DNA of 35,041 bases. It comes from Deltaproteobacteria bacterium (GTDB lineage Bacteria > Desulfobacterota > Syntrophobacteria > BM002). Position 1 is the stretch's first letter, and each line of letters begins with the position of its first letter. This document shows positions 8,002-32,395 of this stretch, one piece after another. A program made the position numbers and the translations under genes. The notes under the pieces were generated by a model. It did not search any database, had not been told where the DNA came from, and was given only the letters and a program-made list of their open reading frames with translations. The stretch lies in NCBI GenBank assembly GCA_019309045.1, contig JAFDGZ010000030.1, forward strand, positions 1-35,041, given 5' to 3'.

Positions 8002-8030
8002 GATGAATTTGGCCCCGGGAGAAAAGGGAT

Positions 8031-9425
8031 ATGCGCAAGACCATCATGATAGTTGATGACGAGCCGAGTATCCGCAGTTCGCTGGCAGGTGTTCTCGAGG
8101 ACGAGGGCTATAGGGTGGTTGCTTCCAGCAATGGAGCAGAAGCCCTCAAGAGCATAGAGGAACAGATGCCGGATCTGGTCCTTCTGGATATCTGGATGCC
8201 TGGAATGGATGGCATTGAAACTCTGAAAAAGATCCGCTCTTATTATCCTGGCCTACAGGTGGTCATGATTTCAGGGCACGGTACTATAGAGACCGCTGTG
8301 ACTGCAACCAAGCTCGGGGCATTTGACTTTATTGAAAAACCGCTGTCGCTTGAGAAGACGCTGCTTTCCATTCAGAACGCCCTCAATTTCAGACAGCTGA
8401 AAGACGACAATATCATTCTTCGTCAGAAAGCAGAACGGGATTACAAGATCACAGGCTCCAGTCCTGCTATTCGACAACTGCGGGAGACCATCGAACGAGT
8501 GGCACCCACACAGGCAACCGTTCTAATCACGGGCGAGAATGGAACCGGCAAGGAACTGGTAGCCAGAGCAATCCACCGACTCAGCCCTCGAAGCAATCGT
8601 CCGCTGGTAGAGGTGAACTGCGCCGCAATTCCTGAGGAGCTTATTGAAAGTGAACTATTCGGACACGAAAAAGGAGCTTTTACTGGAGCCAACGAACGCC
8701 GACGTGGCCGCTTTGACCTCGCCAACAATGGCACTCTTCTTCTTGACGAAATTGGTGACATGAGTTTGAAAACTCAGGCAAAAATATTGAGAATTCTCCA
8801 GGAGCAACACTTTGAGAGAGTAGGAGGAACCAAAACCATCCAGGTCGACGTACGTATTATTGCGGCAACCAACAAAAATCTGGAGCAACGGATCAAAGAG
8901 GGTAGATTTCGGCAAGACCTTTATTATCGCTTGAATGTCATCCCGATTCACGTGCCGCCGCTGAGAGAAAGGAGTGAAGATATTCCTCTGCTGGTAGAGG
9001 ACTTTATCCAGGAGTTTACCAGGGAGGGGGGGCTGAAAGAGAAACACTTTTCCGAAGCGGCCATCGAGGTAATGAAAAGGCAGCAATGGCCGGGCAATGT
9101 GAGAGAGCTAAAAAACTTCGTGGAACGGTTGGTCATCCTTGTGCCGGACGACATAATAGACACACCTCATCTGCCTGAAAGTTTCCTGCAAGGTTGTCCA
9201 ACGCCACAAACGGCCACGGCCCTGGATCAGCCAACTTTCAGACAGGCGAAGGCGGAATTCGAAAAAGAATACCTTCGAAAAAAACTCGAGGAACACAACT
9301 GGAATATCTCTCAAACAGCAGAATCAATAGGGCTGGAGCGAAGCCATCTGCACCGCAAGATCAAAGCATATGGGGTTCAGCCGATCATAGGGAGGAAACA
9401 GTCTGCAAGCCGTTCACCCTTCTGA
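8031..9425 (+). CDS. ntrX: NtrX-type sigma-54-dependent response regulator
   Basis: A 464-residue NtrC-family activator. The receiver domain (about 1-120) has the acidic pair in IVDDEPS, phospho-acceptor Asp53 (LLDIWMPGMDG) and the conserved Lys of EKPLS. The AAA+ domain has Walker A GENGTGK at 168-174, the sigma-54 contact loop GAFTGA at 215-220 and Walker B TLLLDEIGD. A Fis-type helix-turn-helix closes the protein (NISQTAESIGLERSHLHRKI). It starts 29 bases after ntrY with a purine-rich site (GAGAAAAGGG), so kinase and regulator are a pair. It should activate sigma-54 promoters; no clear -24/-12 element was found in this window. Confidence 0.92.
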   Translation: MRKTIMIVDDEPSIRSSLAGVLEDEGYRVVASSNGAEALKSIEEQMPDLVLLDIWMPGMDGIETLKKIRSYYPGLQVVMISGHGTIETAVTATKLGAFDFIEKPLSLEKTLLSIQNALNFRQLKDDNIILRQKAERDYKITGSSPAIRQLRETIERVAPTQATVLITGENGTGKELVARAIHRLSPRSNRPLVEVNCAAIPEELIESELFGHEKGAFTGANERRRGRFDLANNGTLLLDEIGDMSLKTQAKILRILQEQHFERVGGTKTIQVDVRIIAATNKNLEQRIKEGRFRQDLYYRLNVIPIHVPPLRERSEDIPLLVEDFIQEFTREGGLKEKHFSEAAIEVMKRQQWPGNVRELKNFVERLVILVPDDIIDTPHLPESFLQGCPTPQTATALDQPTFRQAKAEFEKEYLRKKLEEHNWNISQTAESIGLERSHLHRKIKAYGVQPIIGRKQSASRSPF

Positions 9426-17361: not shown

Positions 17362-18150
17362 TCAGTGTGAGGCCACCTTGTCCTCGCCACTGAGAGCTGC
17401 GCAGACACCGGCTGGACAGATGCCGCTTTCCACGTGCGCTTCGAACTCTTCCCGGAAGTGAGTCAGAAGTGAGATTATGGGCCCGCTAGTTGTGCGAGCA
17501 AAGTCACAATAAGGTGCATACTGCATGGCGTGACACACTAGATGCATGCGTTCCAGGTCCTCGGGTGCGCCCCGGCCAGCAATAATTTTTTCTACCAGCT
17601 CGAGAAGTTCAACTGAGCCGACTCTACAGGGCACACATTTGCCGCAAGAGACGCCCTCCTGAAAAGCGAGAAAGTATTTCGCCACATTTACCACGCAGAA
17701 GCTGTCATCTATTGTGGCAAGAAACCCCGTGGCTCGGTCATAGAGTATGGTTGCATCGATTGAATTGTTGGGATCAACGTGAAGCAGGTCGAAAAGGATA
17801 TGTCCTCTTTCAAGGGTTTCAGCAACTATTTCGCCAGCTCGCTCAGGGGTGACTCCGCTGTAATAGAATCTCTTTTGAGGAAAACCAACCAGAACTCCGA
17901 AAGGGCAGTCCCCCTTGCAGCCAACTTTCATGGCAGCCAGTTTGATGCCCAGGCCCCGAGCATCGATTTCCTTTTCCAGGGCCAGGCGAACATCATCGCA
18001 GCCGCATACGCAAGAATTCGCAGGGGAGCACACAGTAATGCAGGGGCGGGCATGACCCTCTTCACAGAACGAAGCCCTCTGCTTCACTATGGCAGGCTCT
18101 TCTGGAGGTCGACGTCTGGTGATTTTTTTCTTCAAAAAGCTCAGTGCCAT
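17362..18150 (-). CDS. Flavin-free NuoE/NuoF-like iron-sulfur protein (thioredoxin-like [2Fe-2S] + NuoF C-terminal [4Fe-4S] domain)
   Basis: A 262-residue protein made of two electron-transfer domains. Residues about 35-120 form a thioredoxin-like ferredoxin with Cys37, 41, 47, 49, 51, 78 and 82 (GCKGDCPFG). Residues about 140-240 match the C-terminal end of NuoF/HoxF, with cluster ligands Cys169, Cys172, Cys175 and Cys215 (C-x2-C-x2-C-x39-C, in SCGKCVPCR) and the SLLTHFREEFE ending. The glycine-rich FMN and NADH site of NuoF (GRGGAGFPTG) is absent, so it cannot oxidise NADH itself. It is the last gene behind nuoN (174 base gap) in an operon lacking nuoE and nuoF. It probably relays electrons between the divergent GltD-NuoG fusion and complex I; that role is inference. 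Confidence 0.8.
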   Translation of the reverse strand: MALSFLKKKITRRRPPEEPAIVKQRASFCEEGHARPCITVCSPANSCVCGCDDVRLALEKEIDARGLGIKLAAMKVGCKGDCPFGVLVGFPQKRFYYSGVTPERAGEIVAETLERGHILFDLLHVDPNNSIDATILYDRATGFLATIDDSFCVVNVAKYFLAFQEGVSCGKCVPCRVGSVELLELVEKIIAGRGAPEDLERMHLVCHAMQYAPYCDFARTTSGPIISLLTHFREEFEAHVESGICPAGVCAALSGEDKVASH

Positions 18151-18324
18151 TCACTCGTCTCTCTTTTCCGTATTAGCCAATCTGCCAGGATCAGGTCCGC
18201 AGGCGAATCTCCTCTCAACACTTGCACTACATTCCCTCTATGTCTCGGCTTGCAGGAAATCCTGGCCTGGAAGCAGGAATCGCGCTGCAGCAGGCTCCCA
18301 GCTTCCCAGCGAATCTCAATTCCT

Positions 18325-19749
18325 TCACATCATTAATCCCTTTGCTGCTGCCCTGGCCACTTCCAGTACGTGGTGAGGATAGATACCAATGACCACCATA
18401 ACAGCAACAAGAGCTCCGGCAAGCACCTTGGTGGGCATAGAGATGTTCAATCTCTCCATCTCCACATCGGGCTCGAGCAGGTAAGCGGCCTTCACCACCA
18501 GGATATAGTAGTACAGGGAGATGGTTGCATTTATCATGGCAATGATTACCAGCACCAGATGTCCCCTGGCCACAGCAGCAGCAAACACCAGAAACTTACC
18601 AGTGAAGCCGATAGTGGGAGGAATGCCGGCAAGCCCAAACACTGCCAGCATCAGCGTCATTGCCAACAAGGGTGATCGACGGTGCAAGCCAGCCAATTGA
18701 GCAATCTTTAAATCACTACCATCATAGGCAACATTCACCACCACCAGAAAGCAGCACAAATTCATTATCAAATATGCCACGGCGTAAAAAATTGCACTGG
18801 CATAGCCGCTAGCACTCATACTCAATATACCGATGAGCACATACCCCGCGTGCGATATACTGGAATAGGCCAGAAGTCTCTTCATGTCCTTCTGGACAAT
18901 GGCAGTAAGATTGCCTATCGTCATGGAGGCAATGGACAGCACCACCAGCACATCCACCAGATACTTGCTGGCGCCTCCAGTCAATGCCACCATGCGCATC
19001 AAGATTGCCACTGCCCCAACTTTGGAAGCCGTGGCAATGAATGCCGTGACCTGATTGCTGGCTCCCTGGTAAACATCAGGAGCCCAGAAGTGAAAGGGAA
19101 ATACTGCCAGTTTGAAAAAGAAGCCACAAAGTGTCAGCAGCAGACCTATCATTGCTGCCGGCGTGGTGATGACTGTAGGCAGTATTTTCATGATTTCAGC
19201 CACGTAGGTGGTATGAGTAACTCCGAATATGTAGGAGAGGCCGAAGAGCATGACGGCTGAAGCCGAAGCACCCACCATGAGGTACTTTATGCCAGCCTCC
19301 ACATCAGTGCCGGGCCCCCGCCGCAGCGGTACCAGTATGTAAAGGGAGTAGCTGGACAGCTCCAGGGCTATATAGATGGTCAACAACTCAACCGCACTTA
19401 CCAGCATCATCATGGCGAAAGTGCAGGTGGTCAGAAAAAGGTAAAATTCTGGATGATATCTCTCCTCCACACCTCTGAGTTCAGTACACAGGCAGATCAC
19501 CAGGAAGAGCCCCATGGCGAGCATGACCTTGAAGACCTGAGAAAAGAGGTCTATCCTGTACGCCTCAAAGAACAGGGTCCCATGCAGTCTCACAGACATC
19601 AGGCTTATAAGCACACCCACAGAGGCCAGCAGCACGGCAACCTGGTAGTCACGCCGGGGATTTGTTCGCGGCAGCATGGCAAGGCCAAAAAAGGCAGCCG
19701 CCATCAGCAAACAATAAATCTCAGGGAGAAAAAGAATCCATTTCATCAT
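18325..19749 (-). CDS. nuoN: NADH-quinone oxidoreductase subunit N
   Basis: A 474-residue multi-helix antiporter-like subunit of the complex I membrane arm, which pumps protons. The proton-antiporter core is visible (VELLTIYIALELSSYSLYIL, then FKLAVFPFHFWAPDVYQGA), with the conserved Glu in IALELSS and lysines in TASKVGA and QKDMKRLLAYSS. The start ATG overlaps the nuoM stop (ATGA), so the genes are translationally coupled; a second ATG follows immediately. It is the last membrane-arm gene; the flavin-free NuoE/F-like gene follows after 174 bases. Confidence 0.95.
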   Translation of the reverse strand: MMKWILFLPEIYCLLMAAAFFGLAMLPRTNPRRDYQVAVLLASVGVLISLMSVRLHGTLFFEAYRIDLFSQVFKVMLAMGLFLVICLCTELRGVEERYHPEFYLFLTTCTFAMMMLVSAVELLTIYIALELSSYSLYILVPLRRGPGTDVEAGIKYLMVGASASAVMLFGLSYIFGVTHTTYVAEIMKILPTVITTPAAMIGLLLTLCGFFFKLAVFPFHFWAPDVYQGASNQVTAFIATASKVGAVAILMRMVALTGGASKYLVDVLVVLSIASMTIGNLTAIVQKDMKRLLAYSSISHAGYVLIGILSMSASGYASAIFYAVAYLIMNLCCFLVVVNVAYDGSDLKIAQLAGLHRRSPLLAMTLMLAVFGLAGIPPTIGFTGKFLVFAAAVARGHLVLVIIAMINATISLYYYILVVKAAYLLEPDVEMERLNISMPTKVLAGALVAVMVVIGIYPHHVLEVARAAAKGLMM

Positions 19750-21218
19750 GGCAACCCGTGAATAAAGGGAATCGAAGAGGTCTGGATCACATCAAGCATC
19801 AGTGAAGGAAACAGTCCAAAAATCACTATTACGGCCACCAGGATCATTCTCGGCAGGCCGAGTCCGAAGGAAACATCTGGCAGATGAGCAAAGCGCTCGT
19901 TTTTCTCGCCATAAAAGGTTCGCTGCACCACCCGCAGCATAAATAAAGCACTAACCACCAGGGCACAGATGGCCAGGGCTCCCCGCACTGGGTATACCTT
20001 GAAGGAGGCTAGAAAGACCAGCAGTTCAGCCCAGAAACTCGCCAGACAGGGCACTCCTATTCCTGCTAGTGCAGCAACTATAAAATAGCCTGAGGCCACG
20101 GGCATTATCTTGCTCATGCCACCAAGCTCGGGAATCATCTTGGTGTGGGTCTTGTCATAGATGTAGCCCACGGATGAAAAGAACAGAGCTGTCATCACCC
20201 CATGAGCAAACATCTGGAACACGGCTCCGTTCAGTCCGTCCACTGTGACTGTGGCCAAACCCAGACCAACAATTCCCATATGAGAGACGCTGGAGTAGCC
20301 AATGACATACTTGAGATCTGTCTGGGCCAGACCAACGAAAGCACCGTAGACGATGCCGCATGTGGCGAGCACGGCCATGAGCTGCGCCCAGTACTGCCAC
20401 CCTTCTGGGCAGAGGAAGATACCCACACGCAGCACGCCGAAGGCACCGAGCTTCATGAGCACCCCCGCGTGGATCATGCTTACCGAGGTAGGCGCCGCAA
20501 CGTGGCCTACCGGCGACCAAGTGTGGAATGGCCACACGCCTGCCAGCACGCCAAATCCCAGGTAAAGAAGAAGGAAGGCAAACTTTTGCTGGAAGGGAGT
20601 AAAGGTGCCCGGCTGCATGAGAGCGGTGATGTCAAAGGTGTTCAACCCTGAATTGACGAACAGATAGAGAATGGCGGGAAGAATCAGGGCGCTGCCTGCA
20701 AGAAGATACAGGGTAAGCTTCATGGCGCCGTATTCTTTGCGAGTGCTGCCCCAGACAGCAATGAGTGGATACATGGGAAATAGCGACACGTCATACCAGA
20801 CAAAAATGAAGAAGAGATCCATGCTCATGAAGACGCCGAACACTCCTGCCACCAGCAGCAGGGTGAGAGCAAAGAACTCCTTGACGCGGTTCTCGAGCTC
20901 CCACATGGTGAGCACGCCAGTGAAGAGCACAATGCTGGTGAGCAGCAGCATGGGAAGGTTGAAGCCGTCCACCGCATTGAAATAGTAGATGCCGAGGGAT
21001 TTGACCCACAGCACCTTTTCAACAAACTGCAGGCCGCCCAGGGTCTTGTTGTATGCAACAAAGAGGTAAAGTGAAATCACCACAGTGACAGCAGAGGCGA
21101 TCAGACTCACCCATTTGATCAACATCTGGCGCTCTTCAGGGATGAAGAGGATCACCAGGAGGCCTATGACACAACTCAAAAGAATAGCCGTCAAATAGGG
21201 GAAGTTGGCAAACTCCAT
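19746..21218 (-). CDS. nuoM: NADH-quinone oxidoreductase subunit M
   Basis: A 490-residue antiporter-like membrane subunit of complex I. Conserved features include TMWELENRVKEFFALTL (near residue 105), FFIFVWYDVSLFPMYPLI, WPFHTWSPVGHVAAPTSVSM and the channel segment AQTDLKYVIGYSSVSHMGIV. The usual Glu of the FFxxFExxLIPM motif reads Asp (VWYDVSLFPMY). ATG 21218 (MEFANFPYL) is preferred: it leaves 19 bases after nuoL, while an earlier in-frame start would overlap nuoL by 41 bases and add a non-homologous leader. It couples to nuoN by an ATGA overlap. Confidence 0.94.
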   Translation of the reverse strand: MEFANFPYLTAILLSCVIGLLVILFIPEERQMLIKWVSLIASAVTVVISLYLFVAYNKTLGGLQFVEKVLWVKSLGIYYFNAVDGFNLPMLLLTSIVLFTGVLTMWELENRVKEFFALTLLLVAGVFGVFMSMDLFFIFVWYDVSLFPMYPLIAVWGSTRKEYGAMKLTLYLLAGSALILPAILYLFVNSGLNTFDITALMQPGTFTPFQQKFAFLLLYLGFGVLAGVWPFHTWSPVGHVAAPTSVSMIHAGVLMKLGAFGVLRVGIFLCPEGWQYWAQLMAVLATCGIVYGAFVGLAQTDLKYVIGYSSVSHMGIVGLGLATVTVDGLNGAVFQMFAHGVMTALFFSSVGYIYDKTHTKMIPELGGMSKIMPVASGYFIVAALAGIGVPCLASFWAELLVFLASFKVYPVRGALAICALVVSALFMLRVVQRTFYGEKNERFAHLPDVSFGLGLPRMILVAVIVIFGLFPSLMLDVIQTSSIPFIHGLP

Positions 21219-21237
21219 GCTCGTGTACTCTCTCTTC

Positions 21238-23148
21238 CTAGAAGAAGAAGTAAAGTGCAACCAGGGCCAGAACAGCAAACATGACCATCAAATTGTACTG
21301 CAACATGCCCGATTGGAGGAACGAAAGTAGCCAGCCTCCCCCAACCGTTGCCCGGCAAATTCCATCAATGCCGCCGTCTATCACCCGCCGGTCGTTCCTG
21401 GTGAACAAATTCGAAAAGACCCCGTAAATCACGTAATCCAGGAACCGCCGCCAGAAAAGATCCATGTACCACCGCTCAGCAAAAAGATCCCGCACCGCTG
21501 GGACTCTCTCCACAAAACCAATCTGGGCAGCTCCTGGTCGACCGAATTCGAACCAGGCCAGCACCACTCCGAACAAGGCCAGGCCCACCGCCGTGTAGAG
21601 CAGCCAGGCATGGTGGCCGCCACCGTGTGCTCCGGCCACCTTGTAGAGCCCCCCGAGAAAATGCTCCAGAGGAGCCTGGAAAAACCCGAGACCTATTGTA
21701 ATGGCGGCGAGTATGATCAACGGCCATGCCATCACCCAGTAGATTTCTGCATGGTGATGGGCGTCATGGTGGCCTTCGTGAACCTCGTGATGTACTGGCT
21801 CGATTTTCTGGGGGAACAGAATAATAAAAATCAACCGGAAGGAATAGTAGGCTGTAAGAAATGCACCTGCCAAACCTGCCACCAGCCAGATGGGATTGTG
21901 AAGTCCGGCCAGGGCTCCCATGATGGCCTCTTTGCTAAAGAAACCAGACAGAGGCGGCAGACCTGAAAGGGCAGCAGCACCGATGGTCATGCAGATGATG
22001 GGGATTTTCAAACCACGTCCTCCCCGGGTTCCTATGTCGTACATGTCATTGGTTTCAAATTCATGAATCAATACCCCGGAGCAGAGAAAGAGAAGCGCCT
22101 TGAATCCGGCATGAGTGGTGAGATGAAAAGTCCCAGCAAAATAACTGCCCGCAGCCAGTCCCATAACCATAAATCCGAGCTGGCTGATGGTAGAGTAGGC
22201 CCACACTTGCTTGATGTCTCTAGTTACCATGGCCATGGTAGATGCCAGCAGCATGGTGATGGTGCCAATAGCCAGAAAGACGCTCATGGCAGTAGCCGAA
22301 TTGCTGAAGAAGGGAAAAAGGCGGCCGAATAAATACACACCAGCAGCAACCATAGTGGCCGAGTGCAGGAGTGCACTTACCGGGGTGGGGCCTTCCATTG
22401 CATCAGGCAGCCAGGTGAGGAGCGGAAACTGGGCACTCTTGCCCACGATGCCCCCGAAAATCAACAGAGAAGCCAGGGTTATCACCGACGGTGACATGCG
22501 GGCCGCGACCATGGTGCTGTTCATCTCCACGATATTGAGATCGCCCAGGCTAAACAGCACCGTCAGTACGCCAAGGAAAAAGGCAACGTCTCCAAACCTG
22601 GTCATGACGAACGCCTTCTTACCTGCTTCAGAAGCACTGAACTTCTCGTACCAGAAGCCGATAAGCAGATAGGAGGCCAGACCCACCAGCTCCCAAAAGA
22701 TGTAGAGCTGCAGCAAAGTGGGGGAAATACATAGAGTCAACATGGCCCAGGCAAAGAGCGACTGGAAGGCGTAATAGCGCGAGAAACCGGGATCGCCGGC
22801 CATATAACCCAGGGAGTACACCTGCACCAGGAAACTGATCACCGCCACAATGGCAAGCATGAGCAAGCTGTGTTGATCCAAGAGAAAGCCAAAGGTGATC
22901 AGATTGGTTCCGGAAAGAAGCCATTTGCCGGTGTATTGAATGGGATGTTGCATGTGCCACTGGGAGGCTAGCAGATAAATGGCACAGAAAAGCGAGATGC
23001 TTGCTGCAGTAAGAGAAATGGCTGCTGACAGTCTGGGATGAGGCCTGGTAAAAACCATGATTACCACTAGACTCAAGAAAGGCAATACCACTGTCAGCAT
23101 AGCTGTGGCCAGGGTTGGGTTGTTGAGTAAGATGGAGGTCATGTTCAT
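21238..23148 (-). CDS. nuoL: NADH-quinone oxidoreductase subunit L
   Basis: The distal antiporter-like subunit of the complex I membrane arm, 636 residues, of normal length with the lateral helix region at its C-terminus. Family blocks are intact: SLFAWAMLTLC, IFWELVGLASYLLIGFWYE, LLTWLPDAMEGPTPVSALLH and TRDIKQVWAYSTISQLG. Near residue 450-470 there is a His-rich loop (HHEVHEGHHDAHHHAEIYW) and near 520 another (GAHGGGHHAW). Such stretches are seen in other bacterial NuoL loops and are unlikely to be catalytic. It overlaps nuoK by four bases. Confidence 0.95.
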   Translation of the reverse strand: MNMTSILLNNPTLATAMLTVVLPFLSLVVIMVFTRPHPRLSAAISLTAASISLFCAIYLLASQWHMQHPIQYTGKWLLSGTNLITFGFLLDQHSLLMLAIVAVISFLVQVYSLGYMAGDPGFSRYYAFQSLFAWAMLTLCISPTLLQLYIFWELVGLASYLLIGFWYEKFSASEAGKKAFVMTRFGDVAFFLGVLTVLFSLGDLNIVEMNSTMVAARMSPSVITLASLLIFGGIVGKSAQFPLLTWLPDAMEGPTPVSALLHSATMVAAGVYLFGRLFPFFSNSATAMSVFLAIGTITMLLASTMAMVTRDIKQVWAYSTISQLGFMVMGLAAGSYFAGTFHLTTHAGFKALLFLCSGVLIHEFETNDMYDIGTRGGRGLKIPIICMTIGAAALSGLPPLSGFFSKEAIMGALAGLHNPIWLVAGLAGAFLTAYYSFRLIFIILFPQKIEPVHHEVHEGHHDAHHHAEIYWVMAWPLIILAAITIGLGFFQAPLEHFLGGLYKVAGAHGGGHHAWLLYTAVGLALFGVVLAWFEFGRPGAAQIGFVERVPAVRDLFAERWYMDLFWRRFLDYVIYGVFSNLFTRNDRRVIDGGIDGICRATVGGGWLLSFLQSGMLQYNLMVMFAVLALVALYFFF

Positions 23149-23453
23149 CCCCGCAGCTCTTGAGCACGTTCAATATTTATGGAGCGCAGCCTTCGGAACA
23201 AGGCCACGATGATACTCAGGGCTATGGCTGCCTCAGCAGCAGCAATACCCATAATAAAGAGGGTGTAAATCTGGCCCACGGCAGGATCTGGGGCCAGAAA
23301 TCTGTTGAATGCCATGAAATTGATGCTGGCGCCGTTGAGCATGAGTTCCACTGCGATGAGCATGCCGATCAGTGATCGGCGCATGAATAGTCCAATGATA
23401 CCCAAACTGAAAAGCAGGGCCCCAATAAAAAGATAGGTATAGAGACTGTTCAC
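23145..23453 (-). CDS. nuoK: NADH-quinone oxidoreductase subunit K
   Basis: A 102-residue, three-helix membrane subunit of complex I. The family pattern is clear: FSLGIIGLFMRRSLIGMLIA, VELMLNGASINFMAF and AAEAAIALSIIVALFRR. The two buried glutamates of the proton path (VELMLN and AAEAAIA) are present. It overlaps nuoJ and nuoL by four bases each, indicating translational coupling. Confidence 0.96.
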   Translation of the reverse strand: MNSLYTYLFIGALLFSLGIIGLFMRRSLIGMLIAVELMLNGASINFMAFNRFLAPDPAVGQIYTLFIMGIAAAEAAIALSIIVALFRRLRSINIERAQELRG

Positions 23454-23980
23454 GACGGCCTCCTGCGAGCATAGCCGGAAATGAGAATGGCACCAATAAT
23501 AGCCACTAGCAGTACCAGAGAAATTACCTCGAATACCAGATCATAGCGGGTGAGGAGGTAGCGGCCAATGGTGGCAATAGACCAGTCGTTGCCGCGCACC
23601 GCCGCCGGCTGCCAGCGGGTGAAAGTGACAACGCTGCACAGCACCATAAACACCAGGATGCCCACGATGGAAGCCAGCCCCACCTTGGCAGGCCGCCGCT
23701 TGGGCAATGACAGGTGCAGCGGTCTGGAAAGCATGATGGCAAAGACGATAGAAATGCATATGGCTCCCACATAGATGAGCAGCTGCATGAGGGCTATAAA
23801 GGGGCTGCCCAGATAGAGAAACAACCCTGCCACCCCGGTGAGGCAAAGGGCCAGTCCGAGAACGTTGTAGAGGATATTTCTGGGACGCAGGGCAATGACC
23901 GCTCCAGTGAGAGTTAGAAGAACCACCAAGGCAAAGCCTAATTCTGCGACTAGGCCGGGATGAAATAGCTGTTGAATCAT
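23450..23980 (-). CDS. nuoJ: NADH-quinone oxidoreductase subunit J
   Basis: A 176-residue membrane subunit of complex I with five predicted helices. The conserved third-helix segment LMQLLIYVGAICISIVFAIML, which undergoes the pi-bulge transition in known structures, is present. The N-terminal ALRPRNILYNVLGLAL is also typical. It begins inside the last codons of nuoI (ATGA overlap) and ends inside nuoK in the same way. Confidence 0.94.
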   Translation of the reverse strand: MIQQLFHPGLVAELGFALVVLLTLTGAVIALRPRNILYNVLGLALCLTGVAGLFLYLGSPFIALMQLLIYVGAICISIVFAIMLSRPLHLSLPKRRPAKVGLASIVGILVFMVLCSVVTFTRWQPAAVRGNDWSIATIGRYLLTRYDLVFEVISLVLLVAIIGAILISGYARRRPS

Positions 23981-24459
23981 GCCGACTCCTGAAGTCGCTG
24001 GACGAGATCCACCACTCCTTCCCAGCGACTGTAATGCGCAAGTTCGTATTCTTCAGAAAATTTCAGAGTCTTGGTGGGGCAGTTCACCACGCACAGGCCA
24101 CAGAGGCTGCAGTGAGAAAAATCAATAAAATAAAGAGTCCCTTTCTTTTCCTCATGGGCTCGGGTTTTCTCGCCCTGCACCTTGATCACCTTTGTTGGAC
24201 AAACTCGCATACAGGTGCCACACGCCACGCAGCGATGGCTGCCAGTTTCAGGAAACTTCTTGAGCTCTATATGACCTCTGTAACTCGGGCTCATCTGCAG
24301 CCGCTTGCGCGGATATTGCAAGGTTACCACCGGTCGATAAATACGTCTGATAGTAACCCCCATGCCCGCAATGAGACTCCAGCCCCCGGAAACGATCTCC
24401 TTGAGCACCCCTTTGAGGGAACCTTCTTTCCCTTCATCGTTATGGAAAAATACTGCCAT
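23977..24459 (-). CDS. nuoI: NADH-quinone oxidoreductase subunit I, two [4Fe-4S] clusters
   Basis: A 160-residue ferredoxin-like subunit that carries clusters N6a and N6b between NuoG and NuoB. Both ligand sets are complete: Cys77, 80, 83, 87 (RCVACGTCMRVCP) and Cys117, 120, 123, 127 (HCSLCGLCVVNCP). The N-terminal part has the amphipathic helix and VTLQYPRKR segment of NuoI. A GAGGG site precedes ATG 24459. A gap of 103 bases separates it from nuoH, where nuoG stands in many other operons. Confidence 0.95.
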   Translation of the reverse strand: MAVFFHNDEGKEGSLKGVLKEIVSGGWSLIAGMGVTIRRIYRPVVTLQYPRKRLQMSPSYRGHIELKKFPETGSHRCVACGTCMRVCPTKVIKVQGEKTRAHEEKKGTLYFIDFSHCSLCGLCVVNCPTKTLKFSEEYELAHYSRWEGVVDLVQRLQESA

Positions 24460-24562: not shown

Positions 24563-25561
24563 TCAACGGATCAGTTTGATGATGCCGGCATAGACAATCA
24601 AATGGACAAGGCCCGCCGGGATCATTATCTTCCATGAAAAGTTCATAAGCTGATCGAAACGCAACCGCGGGAATGTCCACCGTACCCACATAACGCAAAA
24701 AATGATTATATAGGTTTTCAACAAGAACCAGATCCAGCCGGGAACGGGGAGGAAATTCAGCAGTGGGGGGCTCTGCCAACCACCGAAAAATATGGTAGTG
24801 GCAACCGCAGCCACTATGAACATGTTTGAATATTCAGCTAGAAAGAAGAGGGCAAAGCGCATGCCGCTGTATTCAGTATGAAACCCCGCCACCAGCTCCG
24901 ACTCGGCCTCTGGAATATCGAACGGCGCCCTGTTGGTCTCAGCAGTAGCGCAGATGAGATAGATCAAAGCAGCCAGCGGCATCCAGAAGACGTTCCAGAC
25001 TTTGGCCTGTACTTTTACAATAGTGGACATTTCCAGGGAATTTGTCCAGAGTAGAACGCTCAAAACACTCAACAGCAGTGGGATCTCATATGCTACATTC
25101 TGGGCAACGGCCCGTACAGCTCCTAGAAGCGAATATTTGTTGTTTGCAGCCCAGCCGCCCATGAGAATGGCAAGCACGTTAAAGGCTGAAAAGGCAAAGA
25201 TCAACAGCAAGCCCACATTGAGATCTCTCACCTGGAGATTCTTGCTGAAAGGAATTACCACAAAGCTGACAAGTACAGGCAGAAAGATCACTATGGGTGC
25301 AAGGGAATAGAGTTTGCGGTCCACATGCCGGGGTGTGATCAGCTCTTTTCCCACCAGTTTGACACCGTCTACTAGAGTTTGCAATATCCCGAAAGGTCCC
25401 ACCTCTTTGGGGCCAATGCGAAGCTGGATGTGGCCAGCCACCTTCCTCTCCAGCCAAACCAAAAACAGGGCATTGATCTGGACCAAAACCAGAATACCTA
25501 CCAGCCCTACCACAATTCTGGCTACGTCAGGGCCTAGTGCACTGACCATATTTTGCCACAT
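24563..25561 (-). CDS. nuoH: NADH-quinone oxidoreductase subunit H
   Basis: A 332-residue membrane subunit that, with NuoB and NuoD, forms the quinone-binding chamber. Conserved features are [34 protein letters not shown], the acidic loop [20 protein letters not shown] and [16 protein letters not shown]. Length and start (ATG 25561, preceded by GGAGCAAGG) are normal. It follows nuoD after 80 bases. Confidence 0.95.
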
Positions 25562-25641: not shown

Positions 25642-26760
25642 CTAGCGGTCCACCTCCGGCACCACTATGTCTATACTTCCCAGAATGGAAATGGTATCGG
25701 CCACCAGAGTACCAGGGAGCACGTCAGTAAGCACCTGGAGGTTGCTGAAGGAGGGCACTCTTACTTTGAGCCGATAAGGATACCGACTGCCGTCGCTTAT
25801 AATGTAATAGCCCAGGGCGCCGCGCGCCGACTCGGCAGCAAAATAGCAATCCCCTTTGGGAGGCGAGACCCTCACCGGGGCGAGCCCTTTATGGGGGCCT
25901 GGAGGCAGCCGGTCCAGTGCCTGTTCAATAATGCGAAGACTCTGTTCCATTTCCTGGAGGCGCACCATGTAGCGATCAAAGGCATCACCGTTGCTGCCCG
26001 TAGGGATGTCAAAATCAAATTCAGGATAGACTGAATAGGGTTCCGCCTTGCGAATGTCATAGGGCACACCAGCAGCACGTAATATGGGACCAGTACAGCC
26101 AAAACGCAGGGCCAGGTCGCGGTCTATTATGCCCACGTCTTTGGTTCTGTGGATGAAGATGACGTTCTTGGTCACCAGATTGTGATAGTCGTGCCAACGG
26201 CTGCGAAGCCTCTTGATGAACTTGCGGGTGCTGCTGATGAACTCTTCATCGATATCTTTAGCCACTCCTCCCAGGCGGCAGTAGCTGTAAGTGAGGCGAG
26301 AGCCGGTTACTCTGTCCAGGATGTCCAGGATGATCTCACGATCGTCAAAGGCATAAAGAAATGGAGTAAAGGCCCCCAGATCCATGATATAGGTGCCAAA
26401 CCAGAGCAGATGACTGGAGATGCGATTGAGTTCTGCGCAAATGACCCGAATATATTCAGCTCTGTATGGCACGGCTATGCCTGCCATTTTCTCTACCGCT
26501 GCCACATAGGCATGGTTGAAAAGCAAACCAGAGAGATAGTCCATCCGGGAAGAGTTGGGAAAGAACTGTTCATACAGATGGCTTTCAGCCATTTTTTCAT
26601 GGCCTCTGTGCCCATAGCCTACAATCGGATCAGCTTCAACGATGTACTCTCCGTCCAATTTGAGGAAGAGCCGCAGGACCCCGTGGGTGCTGGGATGCTG
26701 AGGACCAAGGTTGAGATAGAAGGTTTGCTCGGTAATCGGCTCAAGCATCTGGGTAGCCAT
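25642..26760 (-). CDS. nuoD: NADH-quinone oxidoreductase subunit D
   Basis: A 372-residue subunit of the quinone-reduction module, related to hydrogenase large subunits. The quinone-site His of NLGPQHPSTHGVLR, GYGHRGHEK and LNRISSHLLWFGTYIMDLGA are present; the C-terminus VLGSIDIVVPEVDR-like ending matches the family (IVVPEVDR). It is separate from nuoC, with a 20-base overlap between the two frames, rather than fused as in E. coli. Confidence 0.95.
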   Translation of the reverse strand: MATQMLEPITEQTFYLNLGPQHPSTHGVLRLFLKLDGEYIVEADPIVGYGHRGHEKMAESHLYEQFFPNSSRMDYLSGLLFNHAYVAAVEKMAGIAVPYRAEYIRVICAELNRISSHLLWFGTYIMDLGAFTPFLYAFDDREIILDILDRVTGSRLTYSYCRLGGVAKDIDEEFISSTRKFIKRLRSRWHDYHNLVTKNVIFIHRTKDVGIIDRDLALRFGCTGPILRAAGVPYDIRKAEPYSVYPEFDFDIPTGSNGDAFDRYMVRLQEMEQSLRIIEQALDRLPPGPHKGLAPVRVSPPKGDCYFAAESARGALGYYIISDGSRYPYRLKVRVPSFSNLQVLTDVLPGTLVADTISILGSIDIVVPEVDR

Positions 26761-27223
26761 AGATTTCTTCCGTGCTCTTGTAAGAGTGTACCTTGCCGAA
26801 TTCCTTCAACAGTGGATGAAAGTCGGCATCTTCCGGTAACAGCAAGCGACGCAGGTCAGGATGCCCCTCGAATTCAATGCCGAAAAGGTCGAAGACCTCC
26901 CGTTCATGCCAGAGGGCAGCATTATAGATACTGCTAATGGAAGGCACCGCTTGTCCTTTGCTCAGCTGAAGTCGTACCACCAGACGCGACATCTTGCCGA
27001 AGGAATTGAAGTTGTAGATTACCTGGAGGCCGTCAGTAAAATCGGCTGCAGTGACAAACTCCAGAAATAGATCCTCTTTCCTGGCAACCTCTGCTACAGA
27101 GACGATCTGCGCTGCAGTTGTCCTGACCTCCAGAAGGTAACCTCTTCTACCATAGTCTCGTGGGCTGACCGCCGCTTCATCAACGACTCTGCCCAGCTTT
27201 TCTCTTAAAGCGTCTGAAGACAT
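26741..27223 (-). CDS. nuoC: NADH-quinone oxidoreductase subunit C
   Basis: A 160-residue connecting subunit of complex I. The family signature [20 protein letters not shown], followed by [18 protein letters not shown], is intact. ATG 27223 lies inside the 3' end of nuoB (44-base overlap) and the stop lies inside nuoD, so the block nuoABCD is tightly packed. The ribosome site is weak, in keeping with translational coupling. Confidence 0.95.
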
Positions 27224-27704
27224 TCCGTTTCTCGCCTTTGGTAATCAAATCCTCGAGAGCCAGAAATCCCTGAATCAAACCTTCGGGTCTCGGAGGACAG
27301 CCAGGGACATATACATCTACCGGGATGAGCAAATCTGCACCCGGCACTATGGCATACTGGCCCTCATATTCGAATGGTCCCCCGGAAATGGCGCAATTGC
27401 CCATGGCAATGCACCACTTGGGCGCCGGCATCTGTTCCCACAGGGTAACTATGGTTGTCGCCATTTTTTTGGATATGGTGCCAGCCACAATCATCAAGTC
27501 CGATTGCCGCGGCGAAGGCCGGAACACCCCAGCGCCAAAGCGGTCCAAGTCGAACCGGCTGGCTCCTGCCGCCATCATCTCGATGGCGCAGCAGGCAAGA
27601 CCGAAAGTCATGGGCCACAATGAATTTGCCCGGCACACGTTGAGCACTTGCTCGAGCACAGCAAAGCGAATGCGGGGCCCTGTTTCTAAACCTTTTTCTG
27701 CCAA
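27180..27704 (-). CDS. nuoB: NADH-quinone oxidoreductase subunit B, cluster N2
   Basis: A 174-residue subunit that binds [4Fe-4S] cluster N2, the electron donor to quinone. Ligands are Cys38 and Cys39 ([11 protein letters not shown]), Cys104 (MGNCAISGG) and Cys136 (VPGCPPRPE). The start is read as TTG 27704 because GGGAG stands seven bases upstream and no other early start fits. It overlaps the end of nuoA by 19 bases. A non-ATG start inside a tightly packed operon may tune its level. Confidence 0.95.
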
Positions 27705-28066
27705 TTGAACACTCCCTTACGCCAGGCGAAGACAATTGCCAGGGACAAGATTCCGATAAAAAGCACTATCTCAATAAAGTCACGGATGACAAAACCCTTG
27801 TCATAGGTGAGGGCAACCGGAAACAGATACAGTACATCCACATCAAAGGCCAGAAAGATGAGGGCAAAGACGTAATAGGCCACGCTGAACTGCACCCAGG
27901 CGCTGCCAATTGCTGGCATACCGCTCTCATATGTCTCGGCTCGTTTTTCACCCACGCTTCTGCCGCCAATTAGCCAGCTGATAATAATGGGCGTCACCGC
28001 AAAAAGAAGTGCCACCACCAGGAAGGCGGCAACGTAAAGAAAATCGTGCAATGGATTTACGTCCAT
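27686..28066 (-). CDS. nuoA: NADH-quinone oxidoreductase subunit A
   Basis: A 126-residue, three-helix subunit of complex I and the first gene of nuoABCDHIJKLMN. The conserved loop [20 protein letters not shown] and the helix [20 protein letters not shown], with its acidic pair, are present. ATG 28066 follows GAGAGTGGAG. About 117 bases of leader separate it from a predicted promoter, and the leader contains a terminator-like hairpin (see separate entries). Confidence 0.95.
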
Positions 28067-28143: not shown

Positions 28144-28160
28144 CTCTTGTTAGCAGGTCA

Positions 28161-28179
28161 TGTGGTAATATTTATCACA
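28161..28179. promoter_or_regulatory. Imperfect palindrome at the nuo start site, candidate operator
   Basis: TGTGGTAATATTTATCACA is symmetric at seven of nine base pairs and lies just downstream of the predicted nuo -10 box, a place where a bound protein would repress. Outer TGTG/CACA half-sites recall CRP/FNR or Rex operators, but the 11-base spacing is three longer than theirs, so no regulator is assigned. Confidence 0.35.
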
Positions 28180-28189
28180 AACAGGCGGT

Positions 28190-28218
28190 ATTCTCACCGA
28201 AACTTGGACCTGTGTCAA
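28190..28218 (-). promoter_or_regulatory. nuoAp: Predicted sigma-70-type promoter of the nuo operon
   Basis: On the minus strand, a perfect TTGACA (28218-28213) is followed after 17 bases by GAGAAT (28195-28190), matching the -10 consensus at four of six positions. Transcription would begin near 28183, giving a leader of about 117 bases before nuoA. Confidence 0.6.
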
Positions 28219-28322
28219 GCACAAAAGGTGATCATAGTGGAAAAAGTGGATCTCATTAATAGTCACAATCCTTCTAACTAATGAAAGACATATTGATTCT
28301 CGCCTTACAAGCCGATTTTCTG

Positions 28323-28350
28323 TTGACTCGCTAGTTGCCCTGTCTATAAT
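28323..28350 (+). promoter_or_regulatory. Strong sigma-70-type promoter, divergent from nuo
   Basis: TTGACT (28323-28328) and a perfect TATAAT (28345-28350) are separated by 16 bases. It should drive the 66-residue membrane protein gene and the 1238-residue fusion gene. It lies about 105 bases from the predicted nuo promoter, so both sets could share regulation. Confidence 0.7.
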
Positions 28351-28402
28351 AGGTGACTTTGGTGGTCGTGTTTCCTGATTAGGGTGGAGGAGGAATAGAC
28401 AA

Positions 28403-28603
28403 ATGACACAACAGTTGTCCATGCCCAATGGCGACGCGGAAGAAACCTTTAAAATGTATGCTTCAACAGTGGGGGCTCGGTTCATGCGTAGAGCAAACAA
28501 AATTTTCGAGGACTTCCCCACGTCCAAATACCTGCTCTATTTTTGTATCTACACGGTGGAGGTCATAATTGCATTCTGGATCGGCATGCAGCTCGGTCAC
28601 TGA
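28403..28603 (+). CDS. Small single-helix membrane protein, unknown function
   Basis: A 66-residue protein with an excellent ribosome binding site (GGAGGAGGAA, seven bases before ATG 28403) behind a strong promoter. The first 40 residues are polar with a basic patch (ARFMRRANK). Residues about 43-63 (LLYFCIYTVEVIIAFWIGMQ) form one hydrophobic helix with a Glu inside it. No family is recognised. It lies 75 bases before the GltD-NuoG fusion gene and probably shares its transcript. It may anchor the fusion to the membrane or to complex I, but nothing in the sequence proves it. Confidence 0.75.
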   Translation: MTQQLSMPNGDAEETFKMYASTVGARFMRRANKIFEDFPTSKYLLYFCIYTVEVIIAFWIGMQLGH

Positions 28604-28678: not shown

Positions 28679-31600
28679 ATGAAGGAAAAAGTTCGACTCA
28701 CCATTGACGGGCAACAGGTGGAGGTGGAGAAAGGTACCACTATCCTGGAAGCGGCCAAACAGCTGCACATCAACATCCCCACCCTTTGCTACAGTGAGAT
28801 CTTGAGGCCCCAAGAGCGGTGCAGGATGTGCGTGGTGAGAGTGGCGGGAGAAGAGCACCTGCAGGCCTCCTGCAGCACAGAGGTTCTAGAAGGCATGGAG
28901 GTCACTACCGACTCGGACGAAATCCGCCAGATGCGCAGACTCATGCTCGAACTCCTGCTCAAGGAGCACTATGGCGACTGTGTTGCACCTTGTCAACTCA
29001 CCTGCCCAGCAGGGATTGATATTCAGGGCTATATTGCCCTCATCGCCCAGGGCCAATATCTAGAAGCACTGAAGCTCATCAGGGAGCGTATTCCCATGCC
29101 CCTGACTATTGGCCGCGTCTGTCCTCACTCCTGCGAGTACAAGTGCAATCGCAACCTTCTGGACGAACCGGTAAACATCAACCACCTGAAGCGGTTTGTG
29201 GCGGACTATGAGATGTTTTCCGGCAAGAGGAATCCACCAGACCTTGCGCCCCTTTCAGGCCGCAAAGTGGCCATTGTAGGCGGCGGCCCTGCAGGGCTTT
29301 CAGCGGCATACTATCTCCGCTGTCTTGGACATGCCAGCACCATATTCGATGTCATGCCCGAACTTGGAGGCATGCTGCGCTACGGCATCCCGGAATATCG
29401 CCTGCCAAAAAAGATCCTCGACTGGGAAATCGACGGCATCCTGGAGCTTGGCAATATCGAGGTGAAACTCGGACAGGCCTGGGGCAAAGATTTCACTCTG
29501 GAATCGCTGAAAAATGAAGGCTACGATGCCATTTTTATAGCCATCGGCGCCTGGAGCACTCGCAAGCTCGGCATACCCGGAGAGGAACTGGAGGGAGTCT
29601 ACGCTGGCGTTGATTTTCTTGTGGACCTTGCCCTGGACAAACCAGTCAAGACGGGACGAAATATTGCCATAATCGGTGGCGGCAATGTGGCCATCGATGC
29701 TGCCCGCAACTGCATCCGCAAAGGTGCGGAAAGCGTCACAATCATCTATCGTAGATCTCGGCAGGAAATGCCTGCCAGTCCAGAGGAAATTCACGGGGCG
29801 GAGGAAGAAGGGGTAAAATTTCATTTTCTGGCCGCACCCGTCCGACTCATTGGCAGCAACGGCAAGCTCAGCAAGCTCGAGTATGTCAAGATGGAACTGG
29901 GAGAACCAGACGCCAGTGGCAGAAGACGTCCAGTGCCCATCGAGGGCTCTGAAACGCAGATTTCTGTGGACACGGTTATTGCTGCCATAGGTCAGTTCCC
30001 GGACCTTTCGCCCATAGATTCAGACTCAGCAGCAGAGGGCATGCCCACCACCAGATGGCACACAATAGGTGCTGACCCGGAGAACATGTACACAGGAATC
30101 GAGGGAGTCTTTACCGGTGGGGATGTGTACCGAGGTCCAGAGACAGTAGTAGGCGCTTTGGCTGACGGCCGCAAAGCTGCCTTTTCCATCCACCAATATT
30201 TTACGGAAGGTCGAGTAAAGCCGCTGCCCGAGCAGTTCAATATCCTGAAGGGAGATCTGGCCAGCATCGATAGGGAGCAGTTCTCCCACGTACCCTCGGA
30301 ACCGCGAGCGTGCATGCCAGAACTGCCGGCAGAGGAACGCAAGAGCCATTATGAACAAATCGAACTGGGTCTTTCAGAGGATGCCGCCCTGCGGGAAGCA
30401 GAACGCTGTTTGTCCTGCGGTTGTCTGGACACCTTCGATTGCAAACTCCGGAGGTATTCTTTCGAGTTTGGCATTGACAGCCTGACACATACCGAGCCGA
30501 TGGTTCCCTTTGCTGAAGTGAGCCAGAAGGATACTCATCCTTTCATACTGGTCGATCCCAACAAGTGTATTCGTTGTAAACAGTGTTACGAAGCCTGCAC
30601 GTACTTTCAATGTTCCGACGCCATTGACTTCGATGATACACCCACGCTCAACCCTCGCTGCGTGTCCTGTGGTCTCTGTGTGGATATGTGTCCCACCGGC
30701 GCTCTCGAAGAAAGAATTCAGGGGAAGCCAGGGCCTTTTCTCTTCGAGCGCCTGGACGCTTTCTGCCCCCATTGCGGCTGCGGCTGCCACATCGTCCTCA
30801 ACATCAAGGGTGGCAGGGTATACAAAGTTACCACACGCCCCAGCGCACCCCCCAATTACGGACAGACCTGCCAGCGAGGAAGGTTCAACAGTTTTAACTA
30901 CCTGCACGCTGATAACAGACTTCATGTGCCTTTGCTGCGTCAAAACGGCGAACTGGTGGAAACCACCTGGGATGATGCCATGGGTCGGGTTGCCTCAGAA
31001 CTGACACGGTTGGCAATTGCCCACGGACCGGAGGCTGTTGCCGCTGCAGGTTCTGCTTACGCCACCAATGAAGCCAACTTTTTGCTGCAAAAAATCTTCC
31101 GCACTCAGTTCGGCAGCAACAATATAGACTATCCAGGCAGCAGCTCTTCTCGAAACACCATGAAGGGGCTCTCTTCTGTTCTCGGCACGGGTTCTATGAC
31201 AAATTCCTACAGGGAGATCGAGAGGGCAGATGTTATCCTGGCCCTAGGCAATACCATTGAAGAATGCAGTCCTATTATTGCCACTGCTCTACGTCGGGCC
31301 AGCCGAACCAATGGCAAGCGTTTGCTGCATTGCAGTTCCAGCGAGTCCCCTTTTGCCTCTTTTAGCCACTCCACCCTGATCATCGAAAAAGGTGCTGAAT
31401 TAGATTTTCTCAACTGCCTTCTCTGGTCGCTGGTTAGAGCAAAGCTCTACAACCAGGAGTTTGTGCGTACAGCCACTGCGGGCTTTGAACTTTTTCTCAA
31501 GGCATTGGAGAAAATGGACGGTGAGCAGCTTGCAGCCCGGGCGGGAATTCCACTGTCAACAGTGGAAGAAATTGCGCGGCTCATTGCCGGGGCCACCTCT

Positions 31601-32395
31601 ATTGCCCTCGTTTATTCAGAAGACGTGCCCGCTCAGACCAATGGAATTGCCACTGTCGAGGCCATAGCCAACCTTTGCCTGTTAACGGGGAACATAGGTC
31701 GAGAACACAGCGGCATATACCCACTTTACTCGCATATCAATGTCCAGGGTGCTCTGGACATGGGAGTATTACCCGATCACTATCCCGGGCATCTCAGCCT
31801 CAAACAAGCAAGCAACCGCAAACAGTTCGAACAGACATGGTCGGCTGAACTTTCTGCAAAGGTGGGTCTCAGCTGGCCTGAAATATTGCAGGCTTGTGCC
31901 GCAAAGAAAATAAAAGGCCTCTACTTCCTGGACGGCAGACTGCCCATGACTGCCGAGGAGATCGAGCAATTGGGCAGCAGCCTCGCAGAAGTTGAGTTCA
32001 TGGTTGTCCAGGCGTTCTCCATCACTGAGATCTGCAAATATGCTGACGTGATCCTGCCTTCTCTGGCCTTCACCGAACAGTCAGGAACATTCACTACCAT
32101 GGAACGGCGGCTGGAAAAACTCAACGAGCTGATCAGCGGACCTGGCCAGGCCATGCCTGACTGGCGGATCCTGGCGGATCTTCTTGCGGCTCTCGACCCG
32201 AAGAGTTCCTACGACAACGTGGATGCCGTCCTGGAGGAGATCACCAGCCTGGTGCCGTTTTATGCCGGTATAACATACCAGAAGCTGGGCAGCAGTGGCT
32301 TGCAATGGCCGCTTTCCAGCGACAGCACCCAGGGAAGCGGAACTTTGCCAGCCCCCCTGTTAAAAGATCGTTATGAATTCGCTGTACCACGTTAG
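28679..32395 (+). CDS. Multi-domain NuoG/GltD fusion: [2Fe-2S], FAD-NAD(P)H oxidoreductase, ferredoxin and molybdopterin-oxidoreductase-like domains
   Basis: A 1238-residue redox protein. Residues 1-80 are a NuoG-type [2Fe-2S] domain with Cys37, 48, 51, 65. His97 and Cys101/105/109, then Cys148/152/156, fit the iron-sulfur entry of GltD-like proteins. Residues about 195-510 are a GltD/NfnB-type oxidoreductase with an FAD fingerprint (VAIVGGGPAGLSAAYYL), an NAD(P)H fingerprint (IAIIGGGNVAIDAARN) and TGGDVYRGPETVVGA. Two [4Fe-4S] sets follow (Cys630/633/636/640 and 661/664/667/671). From about 690 comes a molybdopterin-oxidoreductase-like part with Cys696/699/703/731. At the usual Mo-ligand Cys/Sec position there is a Ser run (821-824), as expected of a cofactor-free NuoG. 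ATG 28679 has GAGGA upstream. It probably replaces NuoF and NuoG for the divergent nuo operon; an independent soluble oxidoreductase is the alternative. Confidence 0.85.
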   Translation: MKEKVRLTIDGQQVEVEKGTTILEAAKQLHINIPTLCYSEILRPQERCRMCVVRVAGEEHLQASCSTEVLEGMEVTTDSDEIRQMRRLMLELLLKEHYGDCVAPCQLTCPAGIDIQGYIALIAQGQYLEALKLIRERIPMPLTIGRVCPHSCEYKCNRNLLDEPVNINHLKRFVADYEMFSGKRNPPDLAPLSGRKVAIVGGGPAGLSAAYYLRCLGHASTIFDVMPELGGMLRYGIPEYRLPKKILDWEIDGILELGNIEVKLGQAWGKDFTLESLKNEGYDAIFIAIGAWSTRKLGIPGEELEGVYAGVDFLVDLALDKPVKTGRNIAIIGGGNVAIDAARNCIRKGAESVTIIYRRSRQEMPASPEEIHGAEEEGVKFHFLAAPVRLIGSNGKLSKLEYVKMELGEPDASGRRRPVPIEGSETQISVDTVIAAIGQFPDLSPIDSDSAAEGMPTTRWHTIGADPENMYTGIEGVFTGGDVYRGPETVVGALADGRKAAFSIHQYFTEGRVKPLPEQFNILKGDLASIDREQFSHVPSEPRACMPELPAEERKSHYEQIELGLSEDAALREAERCLSCGCLDTFDCKLRRYSFEFGIDSLTHTEPMVPFAEVSQKDTHPFILVDPNKCIRCKQCYEACTYFQCSDAIDFDDTPTLNPRCVSCGLCVDMCPTGALEERIQGKPGPFLFERLDAFCPHCGCGCHIVLNIKGGRVYKVTTRPSAPPNYGQTCQRGRFNSFNYLHADNRLHVPLLRQNGELVETTWDDAMGRVASELTRLAIAHGPEAVAAAGSAYATNEANFLLQKIFRTQFGSNNIDYPGSSSSRNTMKGLSSVLGTGSMTNSYREIERADVILALGNTIEECSPIIATALRRASRTNGKRLLHCSSSESPFASFSHSTLIIEKGAELDFLNCLLWSLVRAKLYNQEFVRTATAGFELFLKALEKMDGEQLAARAGIPLSTVEEIARLIAGATSIALVYSEDVPAQTNGIATVEAIANLCLLTGNIGREHSGIYPLYSHINVQGALDMGVLPDHYPGHLSLKQASNRKQFEQTWSAELSAKVGLSWPEILQACAAKKIKGLYFLDGRLPMTAEEIEQLGSSLAEVEFMVVQAFSITEICKYADVILPSLAFTEQSGTFTTMERRLEKLNELISGPGQAMPDWRILADLLAALDPKSSYDNVDAVLEEITSLVPFYAGITYQKLGSSGLQWPLSSDSTQGSGTLPAPLLKDRYEFAVPR

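Follow-up and report, generated by a model that had tools for sequence, protein, structure and literature searches.

An 11-subunit complex I operon adjoined by a StnC-type gene in Syntrophobacteria: a candidate NADPH input arm

Introduction

Which electron donor feeds a complex I that is encoded without its NADH-oxidising subunits? This question is raised by a stretch of 35,041 nucleotides (contig JAFDGZ010000030.1 of assembly GCA_019309045.1; Deltaproteobacteria bacterium, Desulfobacterota; Syntrophobacteria; BM002), hereafter the window, in which an operon for NuoABCDHIJKLMN lies divergent from a gene for a 1238-residue protein that joins NuoG-like parts to a GltD-type module for flavin adenine dinucleotide (FAD) and NADPH. 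We call this StnC-type protein the fusion, and we call the remnant a second, shorter gene product encoded directly after nuoN, which keeps parts of NuoE and NuoF and is free of a domain for flavin mononucleotide (FMN) (Table 1). On the basis of gene content, domain makeup, conserved residues, synteny and co-occurrence, we consider it probable that the locus encodes an 11-subunit complex I with a StnC-type NADPH input arm that is docked via the FMN-less remnant.

Both halves of this arrangement have precedents. In StnC, a protein of 1172 amino acids (aa), NuoG-like and GltD-like parts are fused, and electrons travel from NADPH to FAD and through iron-sulfur clusters to the FMN-containing StnAB bifurcating module (PMC10482914), and integration of GltD into the NuoG-type N5 loop has already been proposed for the StnC family (PMC7483475). 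An 11-subunit complex I is also established, and its electron donor is explicitly an open question (PMC11238625). What is new is the setting of the StnC-type gene beside an 11-subunit nuo operon. A literature search that covered few subscription papers found no paper linking StnC or GltD with nuo operons and no description of the fusion-nuo combination, of an FMN-less remnant adjoining nuoN or of the small membrane protein described below, which given that coverage is weak evidence. The locus supplies a concrete candidate for the donor that can be put to the test: its homologue has a solved structure, and it comes with a defined docking stub and one more small protein. It suggests what might feed the "headless" complex I of some uncultured relatives of sulfate-reducing bacteria. 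If the proposal is true, complex I input arms are exchanged as modules, and NADPH, which is energetically unlike NADH in the cell, is tied directly to the quinone pool and to proton pumping in anaerobes.

The window's genome (G000) comprises 3.9 Mb in 211 contigs and is 97% complete. Our family sample is a 13-genome order consisting of one family, and wider comparisons cover the class and then the phylum. Genomes bear G-numbers, loci L-numbers and contigs of the window's genome C-numbers.

Results and Discussion

The fusion has the architecture of StnC

A preliminary description of this DNA presented the fusion as a GltD-NuoG megafusion. Its reading of the frame is borne out by Pfam domains that follow one another as a NuoG-type [2Fe-2S] domain, a GltD-type FAD-NADPH module, two 4Fe-4S motifs and an inactive FdhA-NuoG-like domain. 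The type is not a new one, as sequence comparison finds the same architecture in StnC, a subunit of NADPH transhydrogenases of the Sporomusa type. Among solved structures, the best homologues are chain A of Nfn-ABC from Caldicellulosiruptor (9bov_A, E 3e-225) and StnC from Sporomusa ovata (8oh5_C, E 9e-202; PMC10482914), and a fold search also places these subunits closest. The likeness covers the same domain order over ~1170-1240 residues and includes the FAD/NADPH site, the iron-sulfur relay and an inactive FdhF-like domain. An AlphaFold model of the fusion (1188 residues, pLDDT 80, pTM 0.55) is weak around the clusters. Independent assemblies from the family hold full-length homologues that are 64-66% identical, so the fusion is no assembly chimera.

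Alignment shows that the [2Fe-2S] ligands of the fusion are common to StnC and two NuoGs. The GltD module, in which Pfam recognizes Fer4_20 (aa 101-179) and Pyr_redox_2 (aa 196-497, E 1e-32), is inserted at the N5 cluster; the N5 ligands of NuoG are present but split by the insert, with H97-x3-C101 ahead of it and C582-x5-C588 behind, and this split motif aligns with the unbroken motif of true NuoGs. K170 (the C7 cluster ligand) and R239 of StnC are kept as K171 and R241, and StnC Cys114 corresponds to Ile115, a replacement noted in other homologues as well. NADPH oxidation by FAD is predicted from this homology. The preliminary description had named NADPH as a plausible donor, and it gains weight as the likely partner from the two kept residues and from the fact that StnC, a close homologue, is an NADPH enzyme with a solved structure. 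By its description, the soluble NADPH:Fe(III) reductase SfrAB of Geobacter also pairs GltD-like with NuoG/FdhA-like parts, but in two separate subunits; the StnC N-terminal domain is 39.9% identical to SfrB (PMC7483475).

The C-terminal half of the fusion resembles FdhA (TIGR01591, 405 bits) and matches Molybdop_Fe4S4 (aa 694-736) and Molybdopterin (aa 747-1169, E 1e-45). Additionally, close relatives in the phylum are fusions that contain selenocysteine (Sec) or Cys in an intact motif; for example, L248 (4211-7909, minus strand) and L243 carry the CARLU/CARLC motif of working formate dehydrogenases. That the fusion is itself a formate dehydrogenase passing formate electrons to NADP+ or to complex I is nevertheless scarcely credible. 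The 405 bits fall below the family cut-off of 666, Ser823 occupies the catalytic Sec/Cys position with the motif lost, the frame stops ~150 residues before the ends of its relatives, the Pfam scan gave no match to a C-terminal molybdopterin-binding domain, and a similarly decayed StnC gave no formate oxidation (PMC7483475). A working formate dehydrogenase was ruled out by Ser823, the sub-cut-off score and the missing C-terminal part.

An 11-subunit operon ends in an FMN-less remnant of NuoE and NuoF

The nuo genes occupy the minus strand from 28066 down to 18325, with genes A to D overlapping, which confirms the earlier placement of the fusion divergent from nuoABCDHIJKLMN. NuoI keeps both N6a/N6b motifs, NuoB keeps the Cys residues for N2 and NuoD is without the hydrogenase CxxC ligands; the operon therefore encodes a quinone-type complex I. 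When examined as a 14-subunit complex I, the window operon yielded no NuoE, no NuoF with an FMN site and no NuoG, only the remnant. The earlier statement that the operon lacks nuoE and nuoF is thus correct as regards the FMN/NADH domain and incorrect as regards the FMN-less remnant of NuoE/NuoF, which lies ~178 bp past nuoN.

The remnant consists of a thioredoxin-like domain and the NuoF C-terminal 4Fe-4S domain, PF10589, which is its sole Pfam match; the FMN/NADH-binding domain PF01512 was not matched in the Pfam scan and no FMN-loop motif appeared in a motif scan. HydB of bifurcating hydrogenases and StnB match the remnant at both of its ends, through the thioredoxin-like and N3-type domains, but their FMN domain is missing in between and their C-terminal ferredoxin-like domain is also absent. 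All N3-type ligands are present (C169, C172, C175 and C215; CxxCxxC plus Cys). In an alignment of remnants, the second Cys pair of the thioredoxin-like domain is invariant and the first is not conserved, so that a [2Fe-2S] cluster there is uncertain. A fold search with an AlphaFold model of the remnant (pLDDT 84) retrieves HydB, StnB and complex I NuoF.

These features set the locus apart from each of its known relatives. With 14-subunit complex I it shares the Q and P modules with the N6a, N6b and N2 ligands, NuoG-type clusters and, in the remnant, the NuoF 4Fe-4S domain, but it has no FMN/NADH domain and NuoG is replaced by a GltD-bearing relative. With the 11-subunit enzyme (PMC11238625) it shares NuoABCDHIJKLMN without an NADH-oxidising NuoF, but it encodes a specific input module and the remnant alongside. 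Unlike StnABC, it has a nuo operon and the remnant, and it is missing StnA as well as the FMN and ferredoxin domains of StnB.

Reduced ferredoxin, also named earlier as a possible donor, is less likely because the remnant has no ferredoxin-binding C-terminal domain of the StnB/HydB type. The same absence, together with the unconserved first Cys pair, makes it very unlikely that the remnant is itself the entry point, its iron-sulfur domains taking electrons from ferredoxin and StnC acting as a secondary exchange partner. That idea would accommodate the occurrence of the remnant without a StnC-type protein in some genomes, e.g. G026, G027 and G030.

Fusion, remnant and nuo genes are linked in two distant families

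The fusion is encoded in 12 of the 13 family genomes and adjoins nuoA divergently in all 12; records with this pair include CP070735, CP070692, JAJDNB010000103, JAJDNL010000245 and others. The remnant is found in 13/13, as a fragment in G003, and follows nuoN wherever the contig allows; at 28 of 29 loci it lies 8-263 bp past nuoN on the same strand. Within the class, the remnant is present in 27/27 genomes with the fusion and the fusion in 0/19 genomes without the remnant (Fisher p 5e-8, ignoring shared ancestry).

Other lineages show these genes in one line. At L060 (JALOOS010000131, metagenome-assembled genome Prado109), nuoM, nuoN, remnant and fusion are colinear, with the fusion frameshifted near residue 850, and in G142, G170 and G222, which belong to another family of the phylum, a fusion that is 36-39% identical follows nuoN and the remnant colinearly. 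In f4 and in part of f5, which are sister families within the class, the gene after nuoN and the remnant encodes an ordinary 771-aa NuoG that carries PF10588. NuoG therefore follows the remnant in some operons and a StnC-type protein in others, so that the slot beside the remnant is held by either. The 771-aa NuoG type is absent from the window's family, in which a search for it retrieves at best the fusion itself and proteins resembling formate dehydrogenase. Nine control loci of the phylum (L232-L237, L242, L245 and L249), which look like ordinary Stn enzymes, have a full FMN-bearing StnB/HydB before StnC and usually StnA before that. Because a full StnB precedes StnC in such operons, the remnant takes the slot of StnB. 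Additionally, a single nuo operon of G193 encodes the remnant together with NuoE, NuoG and a 1036-aa protein that fuses NuoF to GltD.

The preliminary description would have counted it as contrary evidence if homologues of the fusion occurred mostly in genomes without complex I. This is not so in the class, as each of the 27 genomes that encode the fusion holds a nuoN-linked remnant. In the phylum at large, however, the majority of StnC-like proteins have no link to nuo and are either subunits of Stn enzymes or formate dehydrogenases, many of the other fusions being ~1380 aa long with one in-frame TGA. Proteins with the StnC fold are thus common and for the most part have no connection with nuo; the nuo link is a property of particular clades. 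In a tree of the first 700 residues of the fusion, the window's family groups with L060 (87/91) and the G142/G170 pair stands separately. The nuo linkage requires two changes on this tree, a single origin with losses being a possible alternative; the branches are long and the deeper placement is unsure.

Other nuo genes of the genome

Two further nuo sets occur in the window's genome. The set on C21 (ABCDHIJKLM...) has no EFG found nearby. The set on C61 consists of A, fused BCD, E, F, G, H, I, J, K and N, with NuoF and NuoG normal. A search of the genome for other nuoEFG genes, as the preliminary description had suggested, thus does find a standard set, which that description had named as part of what would speak against it, but one inside its own nuo operon. 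We consider it improbable that the 11-subunit complex borrows these C61 proteins and that the fusion and remnant have another job. Full NuoE, NuoF and NuoG are indeed encoded on C61, and sharing of subunits between the two systems is conceivable, as the C61 operon is without nuoL and nuoM and its NuoN is 70% identical to that of the window. However, EFG of the C61 type lie between their own BCD and the H, I, J, K and N genes, and such borrowing gives no role to the remnant and StnC genes that are conserved next to the window operon.

In the three genomes read, no nuoL or nuoM adjoins the C61-type operon (L028, which is G000:C61 3395-15060; L132; L133), and NuoL of the window's genome occurs only in C30 and C21. 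It may be that L and M come from another set, or that the C61-type complex pumps less.

A probable NADPH input arm

In the proposed arrangement, NADPH would reduce the FAD of the StnC-type arm, whose GltD 4Fe-4S clusters would hand electrons on to the relay of NuoG-type clusters. The remnant would occupy the NuoF/StnB place on the NuoG-like surface, offering neither NADH entry nor a ferredoxin domain, and its N3-type 4Fe-4S domain would form a bridge that is structural and perhaps also redox-active. Cluster N5 of canonical complex I passes electrons to N6a of NuoI, so a NADPH flavin module grafted at the N5 loop would adjoin the complex I core. The relay, most simply the N5-like cluster whose loop carries the GltD insert, would deliver electrons to NuoI (N6a, N6b), NuoB (N2) and finally quinone, with this transfer coupled to proton pumping. 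The 66-aa membrane protein described below may have a part in keeping the arm in place or in its assembly. Overall, the complex would act as an NADPH:quinone oxidoreductase, or would use the proton motive force to reduce NADP+ with quinol; the sequence fixes no direction. Physical docking, the exact route and the donor are likewise predictions.

The earlier proposal that a flavin module other than NuoF feeds this complex I is probably right in view of the StnC homology, K171/R241 and nuo synteny in two distant families. An input arm of this kind is further favored by the remnant in the slot of StnB, the absence of the NuoG type from the family, the small protein and the NuoF-GltD fusion of G193. 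Several observations weigh against it. The fusion-Nuo complex is predicted from genes and sequences alone, and the GltD insert could block docking of NuoI. In the window's family, the fusion gene points away from the operon and is no part of it, and in f4 and part of f5 the StnC-type gene is located elsewhere and not beside nuo. The G028 locus combines NuoE, a full NuoF, the remnant, NuoG and StnC, so that the roles are not simply exclusive. The co-occurrence count ignores shared ancestry, the window's genome is a draft of 211 contigs, and it encodes the full standard nuoEFG on C61.

Some of these points would suit a soluble Stn-like enzyme, exchanging NADPH with ferredoxin, NAD+ or another carrier, that is merely encoded beside nuo while complex I is fed otherwise, e.g. 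by ferredoxin. StnC homologues do occur in ordinary Stn operons and stand alone in sister families, the fusion is transcribed divergently, and ferredoxin is favored as donor of the Desulfitobacterium 11-subunit enzyme (PMC11238625). We regard this explanation as unlikely, though the least so of the alternatives. No StnB/HydB-type partner for a standard Stn enzyme was recognized in the 97% complete genome, where the search yielded only an RnfC-like protein, the NuoF of C61 and an unusual 1314-aa frame. A further argument against it is that the fusion lies beside nuo in 12/12 family genomes and, in a distant family, forms one colinear operon with nuo genes and the remnant.

A broader interpretation is that these loci encode a natural NADPH:quinone complex I. 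FMN-dependent entry of NADH would have been reduced to a stump, and an FAD/NADPH arm derived from a transhydrogenase would have taken its place, along with a small membrane protein not described before; this would have happened in at least two lineages separately. To this interpretation in full we give an even chance.

A small membrane protein accompanies the fusion

Between nuoA and the fusion, ahead of the latter, stands an unannotated gene for a 66-aa protein with no Pfam match and no credible NCBIfam match. Its length of 66 codons is identical in 8 loci, with codon-position differences of 0.20/0.18/0.46. The protein or its relatives accompany nuo-linked StnC-type genes in all three arrangements; for example, a related small membrane open reading frame (ORF) of 52-53 aa directly follows the fusion in G142, G170 and G222. 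An ORF on the minus strand upstream of nuoA (28150-28527) has no family match, and the conserved small gene is the one on the plus strand.

Table 1. Features of the window, in order of position
Feature	Position	Strand	Basis and remarks
Histidine kinase with PAS/HAMP domains, then sigma54 response regulator	5704-9425	+	
Remnant ("mini-EF"), FMN-less NuoE/NuoF, 262 aa	17362..18150	-	PF10589 E 1e-23; HydB/StnB matches
nuoN	18325..19749	-	70% identical to nuoN of C61 operon
nuoM	19746..21278	-	Homology; true start probably within ORF
nuoL	21238..23148	-	Homology to other nuo sets of genome
nuoK	23145..23453	-	Homology to other nuo sets of genome
nuoJ	23450..23980	-	Homology to nuoJ of C61 and C21 operons
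nuoI	23977..24459	-	Family match; both CxxCxxCxxxCP motifs (N6a/N6b)
nuoH	24563..25561	-	Family match
nuoD	25642..26760	-	Family match; without NiFe CxxC ligands; HPSTHG present
nuoC	26741..27223	-	Family match
nuoB	27180..27704	-	Family match; CC and further Cys for N2 present
nuoA	27686..28066	-	Family match
Sigma70-like promoter, 11/12 matches	28323..28350	+	Ahead of 66-aa gene; consensus match only
Unannotated gene, 66 aa, one probable transmembrane helix, ANKIFEDFP motif	28403..28603	+	Conserved frame; strong ribosome-binding site
Fusion, StnC-type, 1238 aa	28679..32395	+	Single open frame; Pfam and structure-homologue matches
NuoG-type [2Fe-2S] domain, aa 3-79; Cys 37, 48, 51, 65	28685..28915	+	Pfam Fer2_4 E 1.4e-21
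GltD-type module, aa 101-510	28979..30208	+	Pfam and alignment; within N5-cluster loop of NuoG
Two 4Fe-4S ferredoxin motifs, aa 625-677	30551..30709	+	Pfam; Cys also kept in StnC
FdhA/NuoG-like domain, aa 694-1169	30758..32185	+	Ser823 at Sec/Cys position

Additional observations

Two family genomes, G011 and G004, have the operon split between distant places of the chromosome assembly. In G011 (L042, L134; CP070692), A-K and N-remnant are ~60 kb apart, by rearrangement or misassembly, and no NuoL was found in that genome. The 1314-aa frame of the window's genome, at L140 (G000:C59) around 18060-19286 (plus strand), has NuoE-like and NuoF-like parts and no adjoining StnC-type gene.

The NuoF(HydB)-GltD fusion of 1036 aa at L203 (1858-4968, minus strand) lies in a nuo operon with NuoE, remnant and NuoG, and this operon and the related ones at L204-L206 have two NuoL-like genes besides M and N. 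At L200 (9134-10777, minus strand) and L201 (8741-10705, minus strand), the remnant bears a C-terminal extension of ~250-370 aa that has no Pfam match. The ~1380-aa proteins of the phylum join the GltD NADPH module in single chains to a formate dehydrogenase that has the CARLU/CARLC motif, and the one in-frame TGA that they often show is a probable selenocysteine codon. Away from any nearby nuo genes, L167 encodes a 53-aa relative of the small membrane protein (18586-18747, plus strand; E about 6e-9) ~7 kb from a StnC-type gene.

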